DNA of 64,000 nucleotides from Arthrobacter rhizophilus (GTDB taxonomy: Bacteria > Actinomycetota > Actinomycetes > Actinomycetales > Micrococcaceae): assembly GCF_026241105.1 (NCBI RefSeq), contig NZ_JAPFFT010000001.1, positions 434,001 to 498,000 of the forward strand, in the 5' to 3' direction. The notes below the pieces were generated by a model that was not told the DNA's origin, did no database searches, and was given only the letters and a program-made list of their open reading frames with translations. Shown here one piece after another: positions 14,039 to 20,523 of this stretch. A program made the position numbers and the translations under genes. Each line of letters begins with the position of its first letter. The first letter of the stretch is position 1.

Positions 14039-15082
14039 CTAGAGCTTTACCTTCACAGTTTCCCACGCCTTCAGGACGGCGTCATGCTCGGAAGAACCAG
14101 CCCCAAACAGTTCCTCCGCAGACGTCGCGGTTGCCTTGGCGAACCGCCGGAACGTGCACGTGGCGGGTAGGGAGCCGCCTGTCAGGGTGTTGTACCAGAT
14201 CTGGCCGGGCGCCTCCCACGCGTTGCCGCCCAACTCCAGCGCAACGATGGAGAAAGCCTTGTTGGGAATGCCTGAGTTGATGTGGACACCGCCGTTGTCT
14301 GCGGTGGTGCGAACATACGTATCCATGGAGTCCGGTTGCGGATCCTTCCCGAGCACGTCGTCGTCGTAGGCGGTACCCGGTGCCTTCATTGAGCGGAGCG
14401 CGGCGCCTTGAACGGCATCGGTGAACAAGCCCTCGCCGATCAGCCAGCTGGCCTCGGCAGCGGATTGCTTTCTGGCATGCTGCTCCACCAGCGCTCCGAA
14501 AACGTCGGACATGGACTCGTTGAGGGCTCCCGCCTGGTTCCGATAGGCGAGGGCTGCAGTGTACTGGGTGACGCCGTGTGCAAGTTCGTGCCCGATCACG
14601 CTGAGCGACTTGGTGAACCTTTGGAAGATCTCACCGTCGCCGTCACCGAAGACCATCTGGCTGCCATTCCAGAACGCATTGTCGTATAGCTGGCCGTAGT
14701 GGACGGTGGCATCGAGTTTCAGCCCGGCGCCGTCGATCGAATTCCTGCTGAACACCTCTGCGTAGAGCCTGTGGGTTTCGCCTAGTCCGTCGTAGGCTTC
14801 ATCGGCGGCCGCGTCTCCGGTAGCCGCACCGCCCTCCTTGCGGAAGAGCTTTCCCGGCAGGACCTCGGTGGATCCGGTGTCGTAGATGGTCCGTTTCGGC
14901 GGACCGGGCCTGGCCTGGCGCGCTGTGGGTACCGGGGCCGGCACCGGAAGCGAGCGGACCGCCTGAAGGGACTTGATGTGGAGCAGGGATTCCTTGGCCG
15001 CCCGTGCAATGATCCGCAGGCGGGGCTCATTCTGGGTTGCCAGCCTGCGCAGCATGTAGGGCGGAATGATGGAACAGATCAC
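14039..15082 (-). CDS. Protealysin-like M4 metallopeptidase
   Basis: Thermolysin-fold zinc protease of 347 aa. The zinc motif HELAH is at residues 165-169 and the third ligand is Glu189 in NESMSDVFG; the catalytic histidine lies in HINSGI. The N-terminus CSIIPPYMLRRLA is the short PPL-type propeptide of protealysins, which replaces the long thermolysin propeptide; there is no signal peptide, so the enzyme is cytoplasmic or leaves by a non-classical route. GTG at 15082 is preceded by AAAGGG. The co-encoded emfourin-like inhibitor probably restrains it inside the cell. Confidence 0.88.
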   Translation of the reverse strand: MICSIIPPYMLRRLATQNEPRLRIIARAAKESLLHIKSLQAVRSLPVPAPVPTARQARPGPPKRTIYDTGSTEVLPGKLFRKEGGAATGDAAADEAYDGLGETHRLYAEVFSRNSIDGAGLKLDATVHYGQLYDNAFWNGSQMVFGDGDGEIFQRFTKSLSVIGHELAHGVTQYTAALAYRNQAGALNESMSDVFGALVEQHARKQSAAEASWLIGEGLFTDAVQGAALRSMKAPGTAYDDDVLGKDPQPDSMDTYVRTTADNGGVHINSGIPNKAFSIVALELGGNAWEAPGQIWYNTLTGGSLPATCTFRRFAKATATSAEELFGAGSSEHDAVLKAWETVKVKL

Positions 15083-15613
15083 AGCGAACCCTTTCGTACC
15101 TGGTGGACTTGACCGGGTACGAACAGCTTAGAAGCGGCCACCGACATTTTGGCCGGCTCGGTGCGGCATGTCCGTTATCGCGTCAAGTGGGAGGCCTCCA
15201 TCGGGCATGGAGGCAAGGGGTCCACATCGTTTTCGGAACCCTTGAGGATCCGTTGCAGCTTGCCGAGGTCCACGATGCCATTGCCCCACGCCAAGTCGAT
15301 TTCGTAGAGGGCTTGTTTGTTGCGGCGGGCGGCTTCACAGTCAGGCATCAGTGTCCTCTGGTTCCGGGCGAAGGACGGTTGCGAGTTGTGCCGCTGGCAG
15401 CCGCGAGAGTTTCCCGGCAAGGACCGGCGCTTTGGCTTCCAGCTCCGGGAACGCAGTTCCCGGCTCCATTTTTGGTATCTGCACAAGAACCATGTGTAGG
15501 GAGGGAGCAAAACGTGACGCGGTTTTTCCACTTATTTTTGAATTGCCATCCCCGCAACCCGCCGGGGCAAAGAAAAACCCCGCCAGTCCTTGGACTGGCG
15601 GGATTTTCTGTTG
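15083..15613. other. 530-bp gap without a recognisable gene, beside tRNA-Arg
   Basis: It contains the protease promoter region and the tRNA terminator. A 118-codon minus-strand frame at 15175-15531 shows no domain that I recognise, and plus-strand frames run into the antisense of the tRNA. There is no integrase-like sequence. It may be a decayed gene or an old insertion scar. Confidence 0.4.
15579..15602 (-). terminator. Rho-independent terminator of tRNA-Arg
   Basis: An 11-bp perfect stem, CCCGCCAGTCC with GGACTGGCGGG, with a tiny TT loop, followed in the minus-strand direction by TTTTTCT. It is 12 bp beyond the tRNA 3' end. Confidence 0.85.
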
Positions 15614-15686
15614 TGCCCTCGATAGGATTCGAACCTACGGCCTTCTGCTCCGGAGGCAGACGCTCTATCCCCTGAGCTACGAGGGC
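15614..15686 (-). tRNA. tRNA-Arg (anticodon CCG)
   Basis: A 73-nt cloverleaf on the minus strand. Acceptor stem GCCCTCG pairs with CGAGGGC, discriminator A; D-arm GCTCAGGGGATAGAGC; anticodon stem TCTGC/GCAGA with loop CTCCGGA giving anticodon CCG; T-arm GTAGGTTCGAATCCTAT. Reads the arginine codon CGG. The terminal CCA is not encoded. Confidence 0.95.
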
Positions 15687-15776: not shown

Positions 15777-17297
15777 TCAGTAGCCCGAGAACGAGTCGGT
15801 ATGGATTCTTCGGGCTCCTGCCCGGCGTGCGGCGGCGCGGAGGGAGTCCACGTTTGTCGGGGACCCGGACACGTACACGTCCCGTCCGGCAACATCGGGA
15901 ACGAGTTCCCGCAGCGAGTTGCCATCGATCCGGCCCTGTCCGGCGTCGTGCATGAACGACGGCGGTGGGGAACCGTCTGCCATGCGCGCAATGACGCGCG
16001 CACCGGAGGCCTCCAGGACATCCCGCCCGGCAAGTTCGGCCGCGCTGGGGGCGAGATACAACACCACGATGTCCCTTCGCTCGGAGTCGAGCGACGCCAG
16101 TTGGGACAAGAAAGGCGTGATCCCGATCCCCGCAGCGATGAGCAGCACGGGCCTGCCGACGTCGGACGGTAGGACAAAGTCACCGCCTACTGCGGTGCCA
16201 CGAACGCATTCTCCGGCCTCAAGGGCGAGCAACGCGCGCTTGGCGGCCGAGATCGGCTCCGCCGTGCCGACGCCGAAAGTCAACTCCGGCGAGTCTGGCG
16301 CGCTGGTGATGCTGAAGACCCGTCTCCGTCCCTTCCCGTCGGAGCGCGGGTGCGGAAGGTTGAGCTCCATGAACTGCCCGGGAAGGTAACGAACGGGACG
16401 GCGCGGCTCAAAACGGAATTCGGTAGTGGACGGAGTCAGGGGACGCGACCCCTTGAAGGTCAGCATGACCCCGCGGCGTTGTCCCGCGAGGAATGCGAGG
16501 AAGTTGCCTACGAGCAGCGCAAGTTCCGGCGAATTGGCCACGATACCCAGGTTGTACGGCACTGCGAACAACACGCCGACGACCACCGCCAGCGCCAATT
16601 GCTGCAAGCGCCGAGGCGGCAAGGTGAGCGGCTCCGTGAGCATGAAGCCCACGAAGAACAGGAGTGGCCGTTGCGCAAGCGGCTGCCAGAGGGCCGACCC
16701 CCATGTCATGCCCGCTTGCAGGAGTTCGGCGGACACGATGGATACCGTGACCACCAGGAACGTGCCGGCCATCAGCATCTTCCGCGTCCTGTACAGCACC
16801 AGCAGGACGCCCGGCACCAGGAGCCACAACATGGCCGGTGTCGCCGCCCACCATGTCGCAATGTTCAAACCCGTGAGGCTGGCGATGAAGGCGCCGGCGG
16901 CAGCAGGGTTGAAAATGTGGTGGCCACGGAAAGCCAACACATACTTGGACGCAGACGCCAGGACACAAGCCACAACCACCCCGGCAATGTCAGGAACCTG
17001 AACAGTGGGCAGGAGTTCGGTGGGCCAGAACAGGAAGTAGAGGAGAAGGCCCGTGATGAGCGAAGACTCCGAATGGGGCCGGACCTTGAACAGCACGGCC
17101 ACGAGCCGGTTGGACGCATACGTCAGTCCCAGGCAAAGCACGAGGTGGACGAGCATTTCCGGCAGGCCGAACGTCAGCCAGCCGAGGACGTTCAACACCA
17201 TGCTGTACACCGCAAGGATGGCGAGGATCCACAGAATCAGCCGGTACATGGTGAATCGGCCGAGCCAGGCGTCCGCACGCGCTTTGATGGCAATCAT
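15777..17297 (-). CDS. RnfD/NqrB-like membrane domain fused to a flavin oxidoreductase (FNR) domain
   Basis: A 506-aa fusion. Residues 1 to about 285 are a polytopic RnfD/NqrB-like membrane domain with the typical HHIFNPAAAGAF and FMLTEPLTLPPRR. Residues 290-506 form a ferredoxin-NADP reductase-type module: YLPGQFMEL, FAD motif RRVFSITSAP, and nucleotide-binding AAGIGITPFLSQL. It would accept electrons from NAD(P)H in the cytoplasm and pass them across the membrane. The SGAT flavinylation motif of genuine NqrB/RnfD is absent, so the membrane part is probably not covalently flavinylated. It is the last gene of the FMN-binding lipoprotein-ApbE operon, with an ATGA overlap. Confidence 0.85.
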   Translation of the reverse strand: MIAIKARADAWLGRFTMYRLILWILAILAVYSMVLNVLGWLTFGLPEMLVHLVLCLGLTYASNRLVAVLFKVRPHSESSLITGLLLYFLFWPTELLPTVQVPDIAGVVVACVLASASKYVLAFRGHHIFNPAAAGAFIASLTGLNIATWWAATPAMLWLLVPGVLLVLYRTRKMLMAGTFLVVTVSIVSAELLQAGMTWGSALWQPLAQRPLLFFVGFMLTEPLTLPPRRLQQLALAVVVGVLFAVPYNLGIVANSPELALLVGNFLAFLAGQRRGVMLTFKGSRPLTPSTTEFRFEPRRPVRYLPGQFMELNLPHPRSDGKGRRRVFSITSAPDSPELTFGVGTAEPISAAKRALLALEAGECVRGTAVGGDFVLPSDVGRPVLLIAAGIGITPFLSQLASLDSERRDIVVLYLAPSAAELAGRDVLEASGARVIARMADGSPPPSFMHDAGQGRIDGNSLRELVPDVAGRDVYVSGSPTNVDSLRAAARRAGARRIHTDSFSGY

Positions 17298-18166
17298 GTG
17301 AACAGTGTCCCTTCAAAACCTGCCGAATAGGCGGCGTGTCCGTCCGAATAGACCTTGAGCCAGGAGAAATCGAATTCTTCGTCGAGCACCTTCGGATCCA
17401 CCAAGAAGAGTGCCGTGGCAAGCGCATCGGCTTCCAGCGCCGAGGGGGCCATGGTCCAGGTGGCCACCACCGTCTCCACCGGGCGCCCGGTGGCGCCGTC
17501 CAGGACATGGTGAAGGCCGTCGCCCCACGCGCGCCGGTTGGCCGCAGAAGCGCACAGGGCACCGTCGTGGAGTTCGACGACGCCGATCGCCTGCGTGGGG
17601 TCGTAAGGGTGTTCGAGGGCCACTCCCAGTGGTTCCGCGCCGGAGTGGAGCATGTCGCCGCTCGCGTCCACAAGGAACTCTGTGATCCGCGCTGAGCGCA
17701 GGACCGCGGCCACTAGGTCCACCAGTTGGCCTTTTCCGGCAGCGCCAATGTCCAGTACCAAGGGAGCGGAAGCGGAGATCTTTGAGCCGTTCCACTCCAG
17801 GACATCTTCCCAGCGCGGTGCCGGCACCGGGTGGCCGCGGGGCCGCAGGGCATAGTCCGCCCCGTAGCCCAGCTGCTCAAGGCTGCTGCCGATAAGTGGC
17901 GTCATGGCACCCCTGCTGAGGCGGTACAACTTCCTGAACAACACTTCCAACTCGGACGCCCCTGCCGGGAGAACCACAGTTCCGGGTTCCCGCGCGAGCC
18001 GCGCAATGAGGGAATCGGTGCGGAACCGTGAATAGCTTCGGTCGTAATCCTCCACAACACCCAGCAAGCTGCGGCGGACCGGACTCGGAAGGGGCTTCGG
18101 CGTCGAAATCTCCCACCTGGTTCCGATTCCGTCGAAGGCGAAGTCGCTCCAGCCCGCGTGCGGCAT
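17294..18166 (-). CDS. apbE: FAD:protein FMN transferase (ApbE)
   Basis: A 290-aa ApbE-family enzyme that moves FMN from FAD onto Thr or Ser of target proteins. Recognisable segments are FDGIGTRWEIS, YSRFRTDS, DIGAAGKGQLVDLVA and DASGDM, and the C-terminal magnesium-site region WTMAPSALEADALATALF. No signal peptide is visible, so it may act in the cytoplasm or need another export route. It sits 5 bp after the FMN-binding lipoprotein gene and overlaps the RnfD-like fusion by 4 bp, so its likely substrate is the lipoprotein. Start ATG 18166 begins the family homology. Confidence 0.9.
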   Translation of the reverse strand: MPHAGWSDFAFDGIGTRWEISTPKPLPSPVRRSLLGVVEDYDRSYSRFRTDSLIARLAREPGTVVLPAGASELEVLFRKLYRLSRGAMTPLIGSSLEQLGYGADYALRPRGHPVPAPRWEDVLEWNGSKISASAPLVLDIGAAGKGQLVDLVAAVLRSARITEFLVDASGDMLHSGAEPLGVALEHPYDPTQAIGVVELHDGALCASAANRRAWGDGLHHVLDGATGRPVETVVATWTMAPSALEADALATALFLVDPKVLDEEFDFSWLKVYSDGHAAYSAGFEGTLFT

Positions 18167-18171
18167 GGCGG

Positions 18172-18645
18172 CTATTTGGCCTCGGACTTGATGGTTTCCA
18201 CGGCTTGGTTGAACCCGCCGCTGGTCAGGGAAGAGCCTGCGACCTTGGACACGTTGATGTCGTCCAGCTTCTTGCCGACGATCTGCGCAGCGATTCCGTC
18301 CTTGAACTCGCCCTGGAACTTCTTGGTGTTCGGGTTCGAGGGGTGGACGGTGATGTCGACGCCGGAAATGCTGCCACCGGACAAGGTCAACTGGACGCCT
18401 ACGGTTTCCTGGCCGTTGGGGGAAGTGTAGGAGCCGTCGGCACTGTAGGTGCCGTCCTTGTACGAGCCCGATGATGAGGAGCCTGTCGTGGCCAGCTTGC
18501 CGGCGCCCGCCTGCGTGCTCGTACCCTGCGGTGTGCTGCTCTGGGCTGCGCTGGCTTGGGTGGAGGGCGCGCAAGCTGCCACCGAGCCGGCGAGGGTGAG
18601 GCCGGCGGCGCCGACGAGAATGCTCTTGTGGAGTGGCGTAGTCAT
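18172..18645 (-). CDS. FMN-binding-domain lipoprotein
   Basis: A 157-aa exported protein. An N-terminal signal segment ends in the lipobox VAAC, predicting a lipid-anchored extracytoplasmic protein. A Ser/Thr/Gly-rich linker (about 27-62) leads to an FMN_bind domain with YTSPNGQETVGVQLTL. The ApbE acceptor region aligns as AGSSLTSGGF against the usual SGATvTS pattern, so the flavin-bearing residue would be Ser139 rather than Thr. First gene of a three-gene operon with apbE and an RnfD-FNR fusion; the likely role is extracytoplasmic electron acceptor or carrier. Confidence 0.85.
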   Translation of the reverse strand: MTTPLHKSILVGAAGLTLAGSVAACAPSTQASAAQSSTPQGTSTQAGAGKLATTGSSSSGSYKDGTYSADGSYTSPNGQETVGVQLTLSGGSISGVDITVHPSNPNTKKFQGEFKDGIAAQIVGKKLDDINVSKVAGSSLTSGGFNQAVETIKSEAK

Positions 18646-18725: not shown

Positions 18726-18737
18726 TTCAACGTTGAA
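18726..18737. promoter_or_regulatory. 12-bp palindrome upstream of the flavin electron-transfer operon
   Basis: TTCAACGTTGAA is a perfect palindrome 80 bp before the lipoprotein start and next to a minus-strand TAGGCT (18741-18746) that could be the -10 box. Candidate operator; the regulator is unknown. Confidence 0.4.
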
Positions 18738-18861
18738 ATCAGCCTAGCGGTTCAGTCTGGGAGCTGTAGGTGGTGAAACTGTGCGTAGCCTGTGCGCCAA
18801 CTGGTGCCCACGTGCACGTGATCACGAAGCAAAGAATTCCACCACTTGCAAGCCCCACCGG

Positions 18862-18873: not shown

Positions 18874-20523
18874 GTGACTCCCGAAGAACTCTCCGCCGCC
18901 ATATCCGCCTGCCTGAAAGACGCTGTCGCCGCTGGCGAGCTTGCGCTTTCCGAATCTGCCCTCCCCGAGGACGTACGCGTGGAGCGACCCAAGAACCGGG
19001 AGCACGGCGACTGGGCTACCAACATTGCTTTGCAGCTGGCCAAACAAGCAGGGACCAACCCGCGCGAATTCGCCACGATTCTCAGCAAGCGACTGGAAGC
19101 GATCGACGGCGTCTCCGCCGTGGAAATCGCCGGCCCGGGCTTCCTCAACATCACCGTGGACGCGGCCGCCGCCGGCGCACTGGCCAAGGCCATCGTCGAG
19201 GCGGGAAGCTCCTACGGAACCAACCAGGCGCTCGCAGGCCATGTGGTCAACATGGAGTTCGTCTCCGCCAACCCCACGGGACCGCTGCACATTGGACACA
19301 CCCGCTGGGCCGCCCTGGGCGATTCCATCGCCCGCGTGCTCCGCGCCTCCGGCGCGGAGGTCACCGCCGAGTACTACATCAACGACGCCGGCACGCAGAT
19401 GAACGTATTTGCGAACTCGGTGCTGTCTCGCCTGCACGGGCGCGGCGTTCCGGAAGGCGGCTACCCCGGAGAGTACATTCGGGAACTCGGCGACGAGGTC
19501 CTCAAGGCCCATCCGGCAATCCGTGAACTCACCGATGTGGCAGCGCTACCGGTGATCCGCGCCGCCGCCTACCAGGCCCAGATGAAAGACATCAAGGACA
19601 CCCTTGCCGAATTCGGCGTAGCTTTCGATGTCTTCTTCTCCGAACAGGAACTGCACGACGTCGGTGCGATCGAATCCGCTGTTGCGCGCCTCCGGGAGCA
19701 GGGTCATGTGTTCGACGACGGCGGCGCCGTCTGGTTGCGCACCACGGACTTTGGGGACGACAAGGACCGGGTGATGATCCGCGCCAACGGCGAACCGACG
19801 TATTTCGCCGCCGACGCAGCCTATTACCTGTCGAAGAAGGACCGCGGCTTCACGGAGAAGATCTACCTGCTCGGCGCGGACCACCATGGCTACATCAACC
19901 GGCTCAAGGCCATTGCTGCCTGCGCCGGCGATGACCCCGAGGTCAACATTGAGGTCCTGATCGGGCAACTGGTCTCCGTCAACGGCGCCAAGCTGTCCAA
20001 GCGTGCCGGAAACATCATCGAGCTCAAGGACCTTATCGAATGGCTCGGGAAGGACGCGGTGCGTTACTCGTTGGCGCGCTTCCCCGCAGACTCGCCGCTC
20101 ACGCTGGATCCGGAACTGCTGAAGAAGAACAGCAACGAAAACCCGGTGTTCTATGTGCAGTACGCGCATGCCCGTTCCCGCGGAACCGCCCGCAACGCGA
20201 TCGAGGCCGGCGTGGACCACGGCGCTTTCGACGCCTCCCTCCTGGACCACGCCACCGAGAACGAGCTGCTGTCCTACCTCGGCAGCTACCCGTCCATCGT
20301 GGCCAAGGCCGCCGAGCTCCGCGAACCGCACCGGGTGGCCCGCCACCTTGAGGTCATCGCCGGGGCATACCACCGTTGGTACGACGCCTGCCGCGTTTCG
20401 CCGCTAGGGGACGAGCCGGTGCAGGACGTCAACCGCACCCGGTTGTGGCTCAACGACGCCACGAGCCAAGTGCTGGCCAACGGACTTGGGCTCCTCGGCG
20501 TTTCAGCTCCGGAACGGATGTGA
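18874..20523 (+). CDS. argS: Arginyl-tRNA synthetase
   Basis: Class I synthetase, 549 aa, charging tRNA-Arg. The HIGH motif is PLHIGHTRWAALGDS and the KMSKS equivalent is KLSKRAGN; the N-terminal ArgRS additive domain (RPKNREHGDWATNIALQLAK) and the C-terminal DALR anticodon-binding domain (NPVFYVQYAHARSRG) are present. GTG 18874 is the start, fixed by the leaderless -10 box. It begins an amino-acid block (argS-lysA-hom-thrC-thrB) also seen in mycobacteria. Its tRNA substrate type, tRNA-Arg(CCG), happens to be encoded 3 kb away. Confidence 0.95.
   Translation: MTPEELSAAISACLKDAVAAGELALSESALPEDVRVERPKNREHGDWATNIALQLAKQAGTNPREFATILSKRLEAIDGVSAVEIAGPGFLNITVDAAAAGALAKAIVEAGSSYGTNQALAGHVVNMEFVSANPTGPLHIGHTRWAALGDSIARVLRASGAEVTAEYYINDAGTQMNVFANSVLSRLHGRGVPEGGYPGEYIRELGDEVLKAHPAIRELTDVAALPVIRAAAYQAQMKDIKDTLAEFGVAFDVFFSEQELHDVGAIESAVARLREQGHVFDDGGAVWLRTTDFGDDKDRVMIRANGEPTYFAADAAYYLSKKDRGFTEKIYLLGADHHGYINRLKAIAACAGDDPEVNIEVLIGQLVSVNGAKLSKRAGNIIELKDLIEWLGKDAVRYSLARFPADSPLTLDPELLKKNSNENPVFYVQYAHARSRGTARNAIEAGVDHGAFDASLLDHATENELLSYLGSYPSIVAKAAELREPHRVARHLEVIAGAYHRWYDACRVSPLGDEPVQDVNRTRLWLNDATSQVLANGLGLLGVSAPERM

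Follow-up and report, generated by a model that had tools for sequence, protein, structure and literature searches.

The 64,000-nucleotide stretch of Arthrobacter rhizophilus DNA analysed here (the window; contig NZ_JAPFFT010000001.1, positions 434,001–498,000 of the forward strand) contains three consecutive genes on its minus strand that form a predicted flavin-based electron-transfer cassette. The first gene (18172–18645) encodes a surface lipoprotein of 157 amino acids with an FMN_bind domain. It has a lipobox, SVAAC, identified by eye, and a C-terminal stretch, SKVAGSSLTSGGFN, that is a predicted flavin-acceptor motif with serine as the acceptor. The second gene (17294–18166) encodes ApbE, a flavin adenine dinucleotide (FAD):protein flavin mononucleotide (FMN) transferase of 290 amino acids that has no signal peptide. 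The third gene (15777–17297) encodes a fusion protein of 506 amino acids, in which an RnfD/NqrB-like membrane domain (residues ca. 1–272) is followed by a cytosolic reductase domain of the FNR type (ca. 273–506), for FAD and NAD(P)H. Five base pairs (18167–18171) separate the lipoprotein gene from apbE, and apbE overlaps the fusion gene by four (17294–17297), exactly the spacing that an earlier note on this DNA had reported. Upstream of the cassette and on the same strand is a promoter of the extracytoplasmic function (ECF) type (18729–18754), in which TGAACC (18754–18749) is separated by 16 nucleotides from CGTT (18732–18729); it is a predicted target of a SigL-like sigma factor. This promoter, absent from the earlier note, points to a role of the cassette in redox stress. 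The cassette type and its electron path have already been published, and the regulatory link – the ECF-type promoter and its tie to a sigma/anti-sigma pair – is the newly seen part.

The assignment of ApbE is unambiguous (Pfam E 4.2e-35; E 2.3e-13 against a solved ApbE). The other two proteins have weak Pfam matches. The FMN_bind match of the lipoprotein (E 4e-4, 21.4 bits) is slightly below the cut-off of 22 bits, and the fusion falls below the cut-offs for both PF03116 (E 2e-4, 21.2 bits, cut-off 27.7) and PF00175 (E 0.013, 16.6 bits, cut-off 22). Among 29 members of the fusion family, 13 had a match to PF03116 and 17 to PF00175 at E ≤ 0.01. Because the lipoprotein and the fusion lie below these cut-offs, surveys that use them may miss the clade.

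The weak matches of the fusion were settled by its predicted fold, which matches both the FNR family and RnfD. The AlphaFold model used throughout was made from 29 sequences (alignment A2) and had a predicted local distance difference test score (pLDDT) of 89.4 and a predicted template modelling score of 0.84; an earlier model from 15 close relatives had a poor membrane domain (pLDDT 70.8) and was set aside. The C-terminal part has an FNR-family fold, with Z up to 25.4 (4eh1_A, 222 residues, 2.6 Å; VIA-align 2) and about 22.8 for NqrF. The membrane part has the RnfD fold, matching 8ahx_D (Z 22.4, 260 residues, 5.1 Å) and also 8rbq_D and 9eri_D, from RNF complexes. The larger root-mean-square deviation of the RnfD match is probably due to alignments that extend beyond the membrane domain. 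Pfam families and predicted fold together bear out the architecture proposed in the earlier note, namely an FMN_bind lipoprotein, ApbE and a fusion of RnfD-like and FNR domains.

Arthrobacter is used here in a broad sense, with a genus set of 61 genomes that includes the host. A long match to the fusion was found in 52 of these, in two cases broken into two frames (G030 and G053). At all 52 loci, the window's own included, the genes are in the order lipoprotein, apbE, fusion, beside divergent argS-lysA. A scan of named genomes covered the best 80 of 119 fusion relatives, all of them titled Arthrobacter, Paenarthrobacter or Pseudarthrobacter, bar one Micrococcaceae bacterium. At these loci, which overlap the genus set, the order is kept in 79 cases, and the 80th is cut by a contig end. 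Among them are loci of Paenarthrobacter aurescens TC1 and Pseudarthrobacter chlorophenolicus (L188 and L224), both with the full set of three genes.

Because synteny among members of one genus says little about function, the survey was widened to the taxonomic order, in which 35 of 297 genomes, from 12 of 94 genera, had a match to the fusion at E ≤ 1e-40. Twenty of the 27 matching genomes outside the genus were fetched, representing 10 genera, and the three-gene order was intact in every one, with a spacing of 600–760 bp between apbE and the fusion gene in two (L269 and L272). The fetched stretch included argS in five of the 20, and argS adjoined the lipoprotein gene in four of these. A survey of the phylum found matches in 10 of 396 genomes; in two the match covers the reductase domain alone, and in one it contains a stop. 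Judged by gene order, the three genes are a real unit, as had been proposed – they stay together at all 52 genus loci and at all 20 from other genera, most of the latter without argS alongside. Absence of co-occurrence in relatives, one of the two refuting outcomes named in the earlier note, is excluded. In two genus genomes, G009 (L311) and G056 (L312), decay of the cassette has left only a C-terminal piece of the fusion at the argS locus, and the G009 remnant locus still carries the ECF-type promoter.

The cassette is almost certainly a member of the NQR/RNF-like flavinylation systems, which Meheust 2021 eLife (PMC8238504) defines by this architecture and of which it gives 127 clusters, mainly from Actinobacteria and the candidate phyla radiation. 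Like those systems, it combines, in Actinobacteria, an FMN_bind protein and ApbE with a fusion of an NqrB/RnfD-like membrane domain and an NAD-binding reductase. It also has in common with them a lipidated FMN_bind protein (lipobox by eye), whose gene adjoins apbE (the criterion is a distance within five genes), and the lack of the covalent site of NqrB/RnfD. The covalent-flavin motif D-x-x-[ST]-G-A-[ST] was found in none of 50 genus fusions and in none of the 29 rows of A2, and the sole [ST]GA[ST] among these fusions is in the reductase domain of L059. The NqrB/RnfD-like subunit is described as having likewise lost this site in systems of this kind (Huang 2024, PMC10979944). The cassette differs from the published systems in its sub-cut-off Pfam matches, its degenerate acceptor motif of the serine type and its signal-less ApbE.

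With the RNF and Na+-NQR complexes, the cassette shares the RnfD fold (Z 22.4) and the NqrF-like FNR domain, but here the two are parts of a single fused polypeptide, with a membrane domain that has no flavinylation motif. The remaining subunits of these complexes (RnfA/B/C/E, NqrA/D/E) are not in the cassette, and a genome-wide search for them was not made. The MsrQ-like/FRE flavinylation systems of Actinobacteria also have FMN_bind, ApbE and a membrane/NAD-binding fusion, but their membrane domain is of the FRE/heme type, whereas that of the cassette has the RnfD fold. For NQR/RNF-like systems, electron flow from NAD(P)H to the extracytosolic FMN_bind protein has been proposed (PMC8238504). 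The path suggested in the earlier note, from NAD(P)H through the membrane to a flavin lipoprotein, agrees with this model (PMC8238504, PMC10979944) and is not new.

The canonical motif of ApbE substrates, D-x-x-[ST]-G-A-[ST], has the acceptor, Thr or Ser, as its last residue (PMC12052999). When aligned with the GGAT proteins of the host genome, the cassette lipoprotein reads S-K-V-A-G-S-S, with Ser at the acceptor position; at this site only the G and the acceptor Ser fit the canonical motif, and the D, [ST] and A are absent. These absences could mean that the lipoprotein is not flavinylated but holds a non-covalent flavin or another carrier, while ApbE serves other substrates, an alternative for which the host genome does offer two other FMN_bind proteins with GGAT motifs. 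We consider it quite improbable: one of the two other FMN_bind loci has an apbE of its own, apbE adjoins the lipoprotein gene at all 52 genus and all 20 distant loci, and serine acceptors have been published, as have only minor effects of losing the Asp. All 52 genus lipoproteins have the sequence GSSLT (preceded by SKVA in 47, SKVS in three, AKVA in one and TKVA in one), as do 18 of the 20 distant ones, the others having SSSLT and GASLT once each. In the distant protein with GASLT (L268) the aligned stretch is DVVSGAS, fully canonical with a Ser acceptor, which supports the placement of the motif in the cassette lipoproteins. Flavinylation of the lipoprotein is plausible but not assured, and the acceptor is probably the Ser of GSSLT. 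One canonical string in a genus lipoprotein (L053) was discounted as a chance string in a linker, away from the aligned site.

The two other FMN_bind loci of the host genome differ in their gene content. One (L078; host G000:C1:1409-4309) is a second flavinylation locus, encoding an FRE/MsrQ-like membrane reductase (by eye), an FMN_bind protein with GGAT and an ApbE. This ApbE, the second in the host genome, is also without a signal peptide. The other (L079:5403-7639; G000:C16) encodes an FRE-like membrane reductase (by eye) and an FMN_bind protein with GGAT, has no apbE alongside, and adjoins a two-component system.

At 30 inspected genus loci ApbE starts at its fold, without a signal peptide. 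Four of these 30 have an in-frame start upstream, but the added stretch runs into the lipoprotein gene or the gap and lacks hydrophobic character. The 20 distant ApbEs are similar by eye. Four ApbE-motif regular expressions matched 62, 67, 54 and 69 of 72 sequences, the expressions being too narrow to serve as a test. A secreted ApbE is typical, and a cytosolic ApbE is given for a soluble target in a review (PMC12052999). Export of the lipoprotein by the twin-arginine translocation pathway was considered as a way to reconcile a cytosolic ApbE with an exported substrate, with a mixed outcome – a twin arginine is in the n-region of none of the 30 genus proteins (by eye), yet in six of the 20 distant lipoproteins (L264-L267, L274, L276), with L275 as a seventh if its start lies upstream. 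A signal-less ApbE beside an exported substrate raises the question of where and when Actinobacteria flavinylate their surface flavoproteins.

The promoter lies between the lipoprotein gene and the divergent argS (18874–20523, plus strand), a genus-conserved neighbour outside the system. Within this intergenic region, TGAACC-N16-CGT[CT] was found in the sense of the cassette at 48 of 51 genus loci and in antisense at none; the 51 are the 52 loci minus one in which the argS start did not align. As a control, 10 of 20,400 first-order Markov shuffles matched the pattern. The fetched loci, 1.31 Mb of strand, contain 51 matches, nearly all at the cassette site. Among the named loci with enough sequence, from the best 80 of 119 relatives, 76 of 79 have the promoter. 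Across the 49 aligned sites, neither GAACC nor the G of CGT varies, though the rows were chosen by GAACC and two of them (L037 and L068) are misplaced.

It is very unlikely that the conserved sequence is instead a housekeeping promoter with TACGCT as its -10 element, or a part of the argS promoter, rather than a SigL-like target. argS is divergent, and the spacer does contain a possible housekeeping -10, which is TAGGCT in the window (18741–18746, minus strand) and TACGCT or TAGGCT in many, but not all, relatives. The A of its TA, however, is kept in only 40 of the 49 aligned sites, and the motif is in the sense of the cassette only. The same motif is also found at sigL loci elsewhere in the genome, and in G264, which is not of the genus, it lies apart from argS. 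A palindrome near the start site, TTCAACGTTGAA, was tried as an operator and rejected; its palindromic form is not conserved (by eye), and conservation is confined to the two ECF elements.

A candidate for the cognate sigma factor is encoded elsewhere in the host genome. At host C3:76571/76603, a back-to-back pair of the promoter motif lies between a gene for a PF03640 lipoprotein and an operon for an ECF sigma factor and a zf-HC2 anti-sigma factor. The sigma factor is closest to solved M. tuberculosis SigL (6dv9, E 2.7e-33) and the anti-sigma factor to solved RslA (3hug_B, E 4.5e-6). An orthologue of sigL (E ≤ 1e-15) was found in 59 of the 61 genus genomes, four of them with a stop or a split frame. 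Thirty sigL loci were fetched. The HxxxCxxC zinc/redox motif is in all 30 anti-sigma factors, and TGAAC[CT]-N16-CGT[CT] precedes sigL at all 30 loci (TGAACC at 26, TGAACT at four). At 29, TGAACC-N16-CGTC also precedes the PF03640 lipoprotein gene, and at the 30th (L132) no PF03640 lipoprotein was found. The host PF03640 lipoprotein (L093:873-1415, G000:C3; divergent from sigL) has a C-x(2-4)-C-x(2-4)-WP motif that is kept in 29 of 29 relatives; a comparison with the PDB gave no match below E 0.29.

In Arthrobacter, the cassette, sigL and the PF03640 lipoprotein gene have promoters of one class, a set of three. A narrower pattern, TGAACC-N-TT-N13-CGTY, had 21 matches in eight genomes against one in the control, and 19 of these were at the three promoters. 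In all 61 genomes it had 150 matches against 14 in a reversed control; sigL/PF03640 loci account for 90 and the cassette for 30, including the G009 remnant. The narrower pattern misses cassette promoters with other spacers, such as the window's own, so the figure of 30 does not give their total. Control of the cassette by the SigL-like sigma factor in Arthrobacter is highly probable.

The element TGAACC is presumably also the -35 of mycobacterial SigL. The Mycobacterium SigL/RslA pair, the closest solved relatives of the Arthrobacter proteins, has in common with them the HxxxCxxC zinc motif, and its own operon is likewise preceded by a site of this class. The pair differs in its -10 element (CGTG versus CGT[CT]), in D60 (versus no Asp) and in its targets. 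In M. tuberculosis SigL, the G at -11 of the -10 element is read by D60 (PMC6372665). In Arthrobacter the T at -12 is kept and the G is replaced by T or C, and none of 30 Arthrobacter sigma factors has Asp at the D60 position, where the loop aligns uncertainly (Ser or a gap). The sigma factor is called only SigL-like because the -10 G and the D60 Asp are absent. H54 of SigL was dropped as a reader of -12, with H in only 16 of the 30 sigma factors. In the open-access literature, no paper was found that links flavinylation or FMN-binding/ApbE genes with a sigma factor, and none on a SigL-type ECF sigma factor in Arthrobacter; the accessible portions of PMC8238504 and PMC10979944 make no mention of an ECF/SigL-like promoter or of a PF03640 co-regulon.

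Outside the genus, TGAAC[CT]-N16-CGT[CTG] was found at two of the 20 cassettes, those of G288 (same family, CGTC) and G264 (another family, CGTG). Among the 20, the best-scoring sigL relatives are in these two genomes (E 8.5e-33 and 3.3e-31), each followed by a zinc-type anti-sigma gene and preceded by a sense TGAACC-N16-CGT site (CGTT and CGTG, respectively). The G264 sigma factor keeps Asp at the D60 position, and both G264 promoters read CGTG. Compared with the absence of Asp and the CGT[CT] of Arthrobacter, this fits a changed -10 specificity common to sigma factor and cassette. The regulon is a lineage-level trait. Weaker sigma matches in G325, G329, G206, G192 and G226 (E 1e-21 to 1e-27) were rejected as sigL, having no such upstream site, and pattern matches in L275 and L279, from other genera, are a long way upstream of the cassette and were left out of the count. 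The pairing of sigL with PF03640 recurs in G119, from another family.

The best explanation of the locus, which we hold to be probable, is an NQR/RNF-like transmembrane flavin relay that is controlled by a SigL-like/RslA-like pair and induced by oxidation. As we infer its course, the cytosolic FNR domain would take electrons from NAD(P)H onto FAD, and the RnfD-like membrane domain, without a covalent-FMN motif, would move them across the membrane via a non-covalent flavin. They would arrive at FMN attached by ApbE, probably on the Ser of GSSLT, on the surface lipoprotein, and the reduced flavin would in turn reduce an envelope acceptor. In M. tuberculosis, RslA senses oxidation via CXXC and then releases SigL (PMC2877774). 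Transcription of the cassette would depend, in Arthrobacter as in a few of its relatives, on a SigL-like ECF sigma factor that an RslA-like zinc anti-sigma factor keeps bound, and oxidation would free the sigma factor, giving more reducing power in the envelope. The PF03640 lipoprotein would be co-induced in Arthrobacter and may be a partner. Sequence shows the gene unit, its domains and predicted fold, the promoter class, the identity of sigma and anti-sigma factor and the three-promoter set; electron direction, flavinylation, redox induction and the partner role are inferred. The cassette would most likely be an export route for reducing power that is induced by redox stress; whether this amounts to redox defence we regard as evenly balanced. 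A more tentative and rather doubtful extension is that Arthrobacter has a three-promoter regulon for redox defence of the envelope, in which the PF03640 lipoprotein is a relay partner or electron acceptor and cytosolic ApbE flavinylates the Ser before export of the lipoprotein.

Several observations weigh against an oxidation-induced relay of this kind. ApbE has no signal peptide although its substrate is exported, and the flavinylation motif is degenerate at the aligned site in all 52 genus lipoproteins. Three of the 51 genus promoters fail the strict pattern – L037 (G022, a near relative) and L068 have no recognisable site, and L059 has one mismatch. The host genome holds 32 matches to the pattern against 21 in a reversed control, so single matches mean little. 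Thirty of the 32 were read, and beyond the accepted sites all were inside open reading frames except two (L104 and L108), which are outside called frames but were discarded, the next gene starting some 500–700 bp further on. Of the 150 matches to the narrower pattern, 30 lie elsewhere than at the three promoters. In G009 and G015 the sigL frame is interrupted by a stop, and in G030 and G053 it is split. G040 has the cassette with its promoter but lacks a sigL orthologue (best match E 2e-13), and of the nine genus genomes that have no long match to the cassette, eight keep sigL, so the pairing of sigL and cassette is not obligatory. Eighteen of the 20 cassettes from other genera have no site in the promoter region. 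In G119, sigL, the anti-sigma gene and the PF03640 lipoprotein gene have sites of their own and the cassette has none, which places the cassette outside the regulon there. Redox sensing itself is transferred by analogy from M. tuberculosis RslA.

The earlier note had included metal reduction among the roles of the relay. This found no specific support, with no iron-box match and with argS, lysA and the protease gene as the tracked conserved neighbours. An assimilatory ferric reductase, in which the relay reduces surface Fe(III) for uptake, is unlikely. The promoter class is ECF, the tracked neighbours, to which the screen was limited, are non-iron genes, and iron regulation of the cassette was rejected in the absence of a DtxR/IdeR-like box upstream, the best match to a 19-mer consensus having at least seven mismatches in all 51 intergenic regions. 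What speaks for iron comes from other organisms: a VIT1 iron transporter is in six of the 127 NQR/RNF-like clusters (PMC8238504), and when iron is limiting, an FMN_bind protein and an apbE gene are important in Bifidobacterium breve (PMC5449479).

For NQR/RNF-like relays, the literature consulted offers only comparative genomics and structure models, and it names neither a trigger nor an acceptor. For a relay under SigL-like control, the regulatory link gives the cassette a probable trigger, oxidation, and a candidate partner. The tie of its promoter to a sigma factor of the oxidation-sensing type and to the PF03640 family makes the function testable, as it predicts an inducer, a regulator and a candidate partner.

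Directly downstream of the cassette is a tRNA-Arg (CCG) gene at 15613–15686 of the window. A probable M4-type metalloprotease gene, recognised by eye from its HELAH motif, is at 14039–15082 and is found nearby in 49 of the 52 genus loci.

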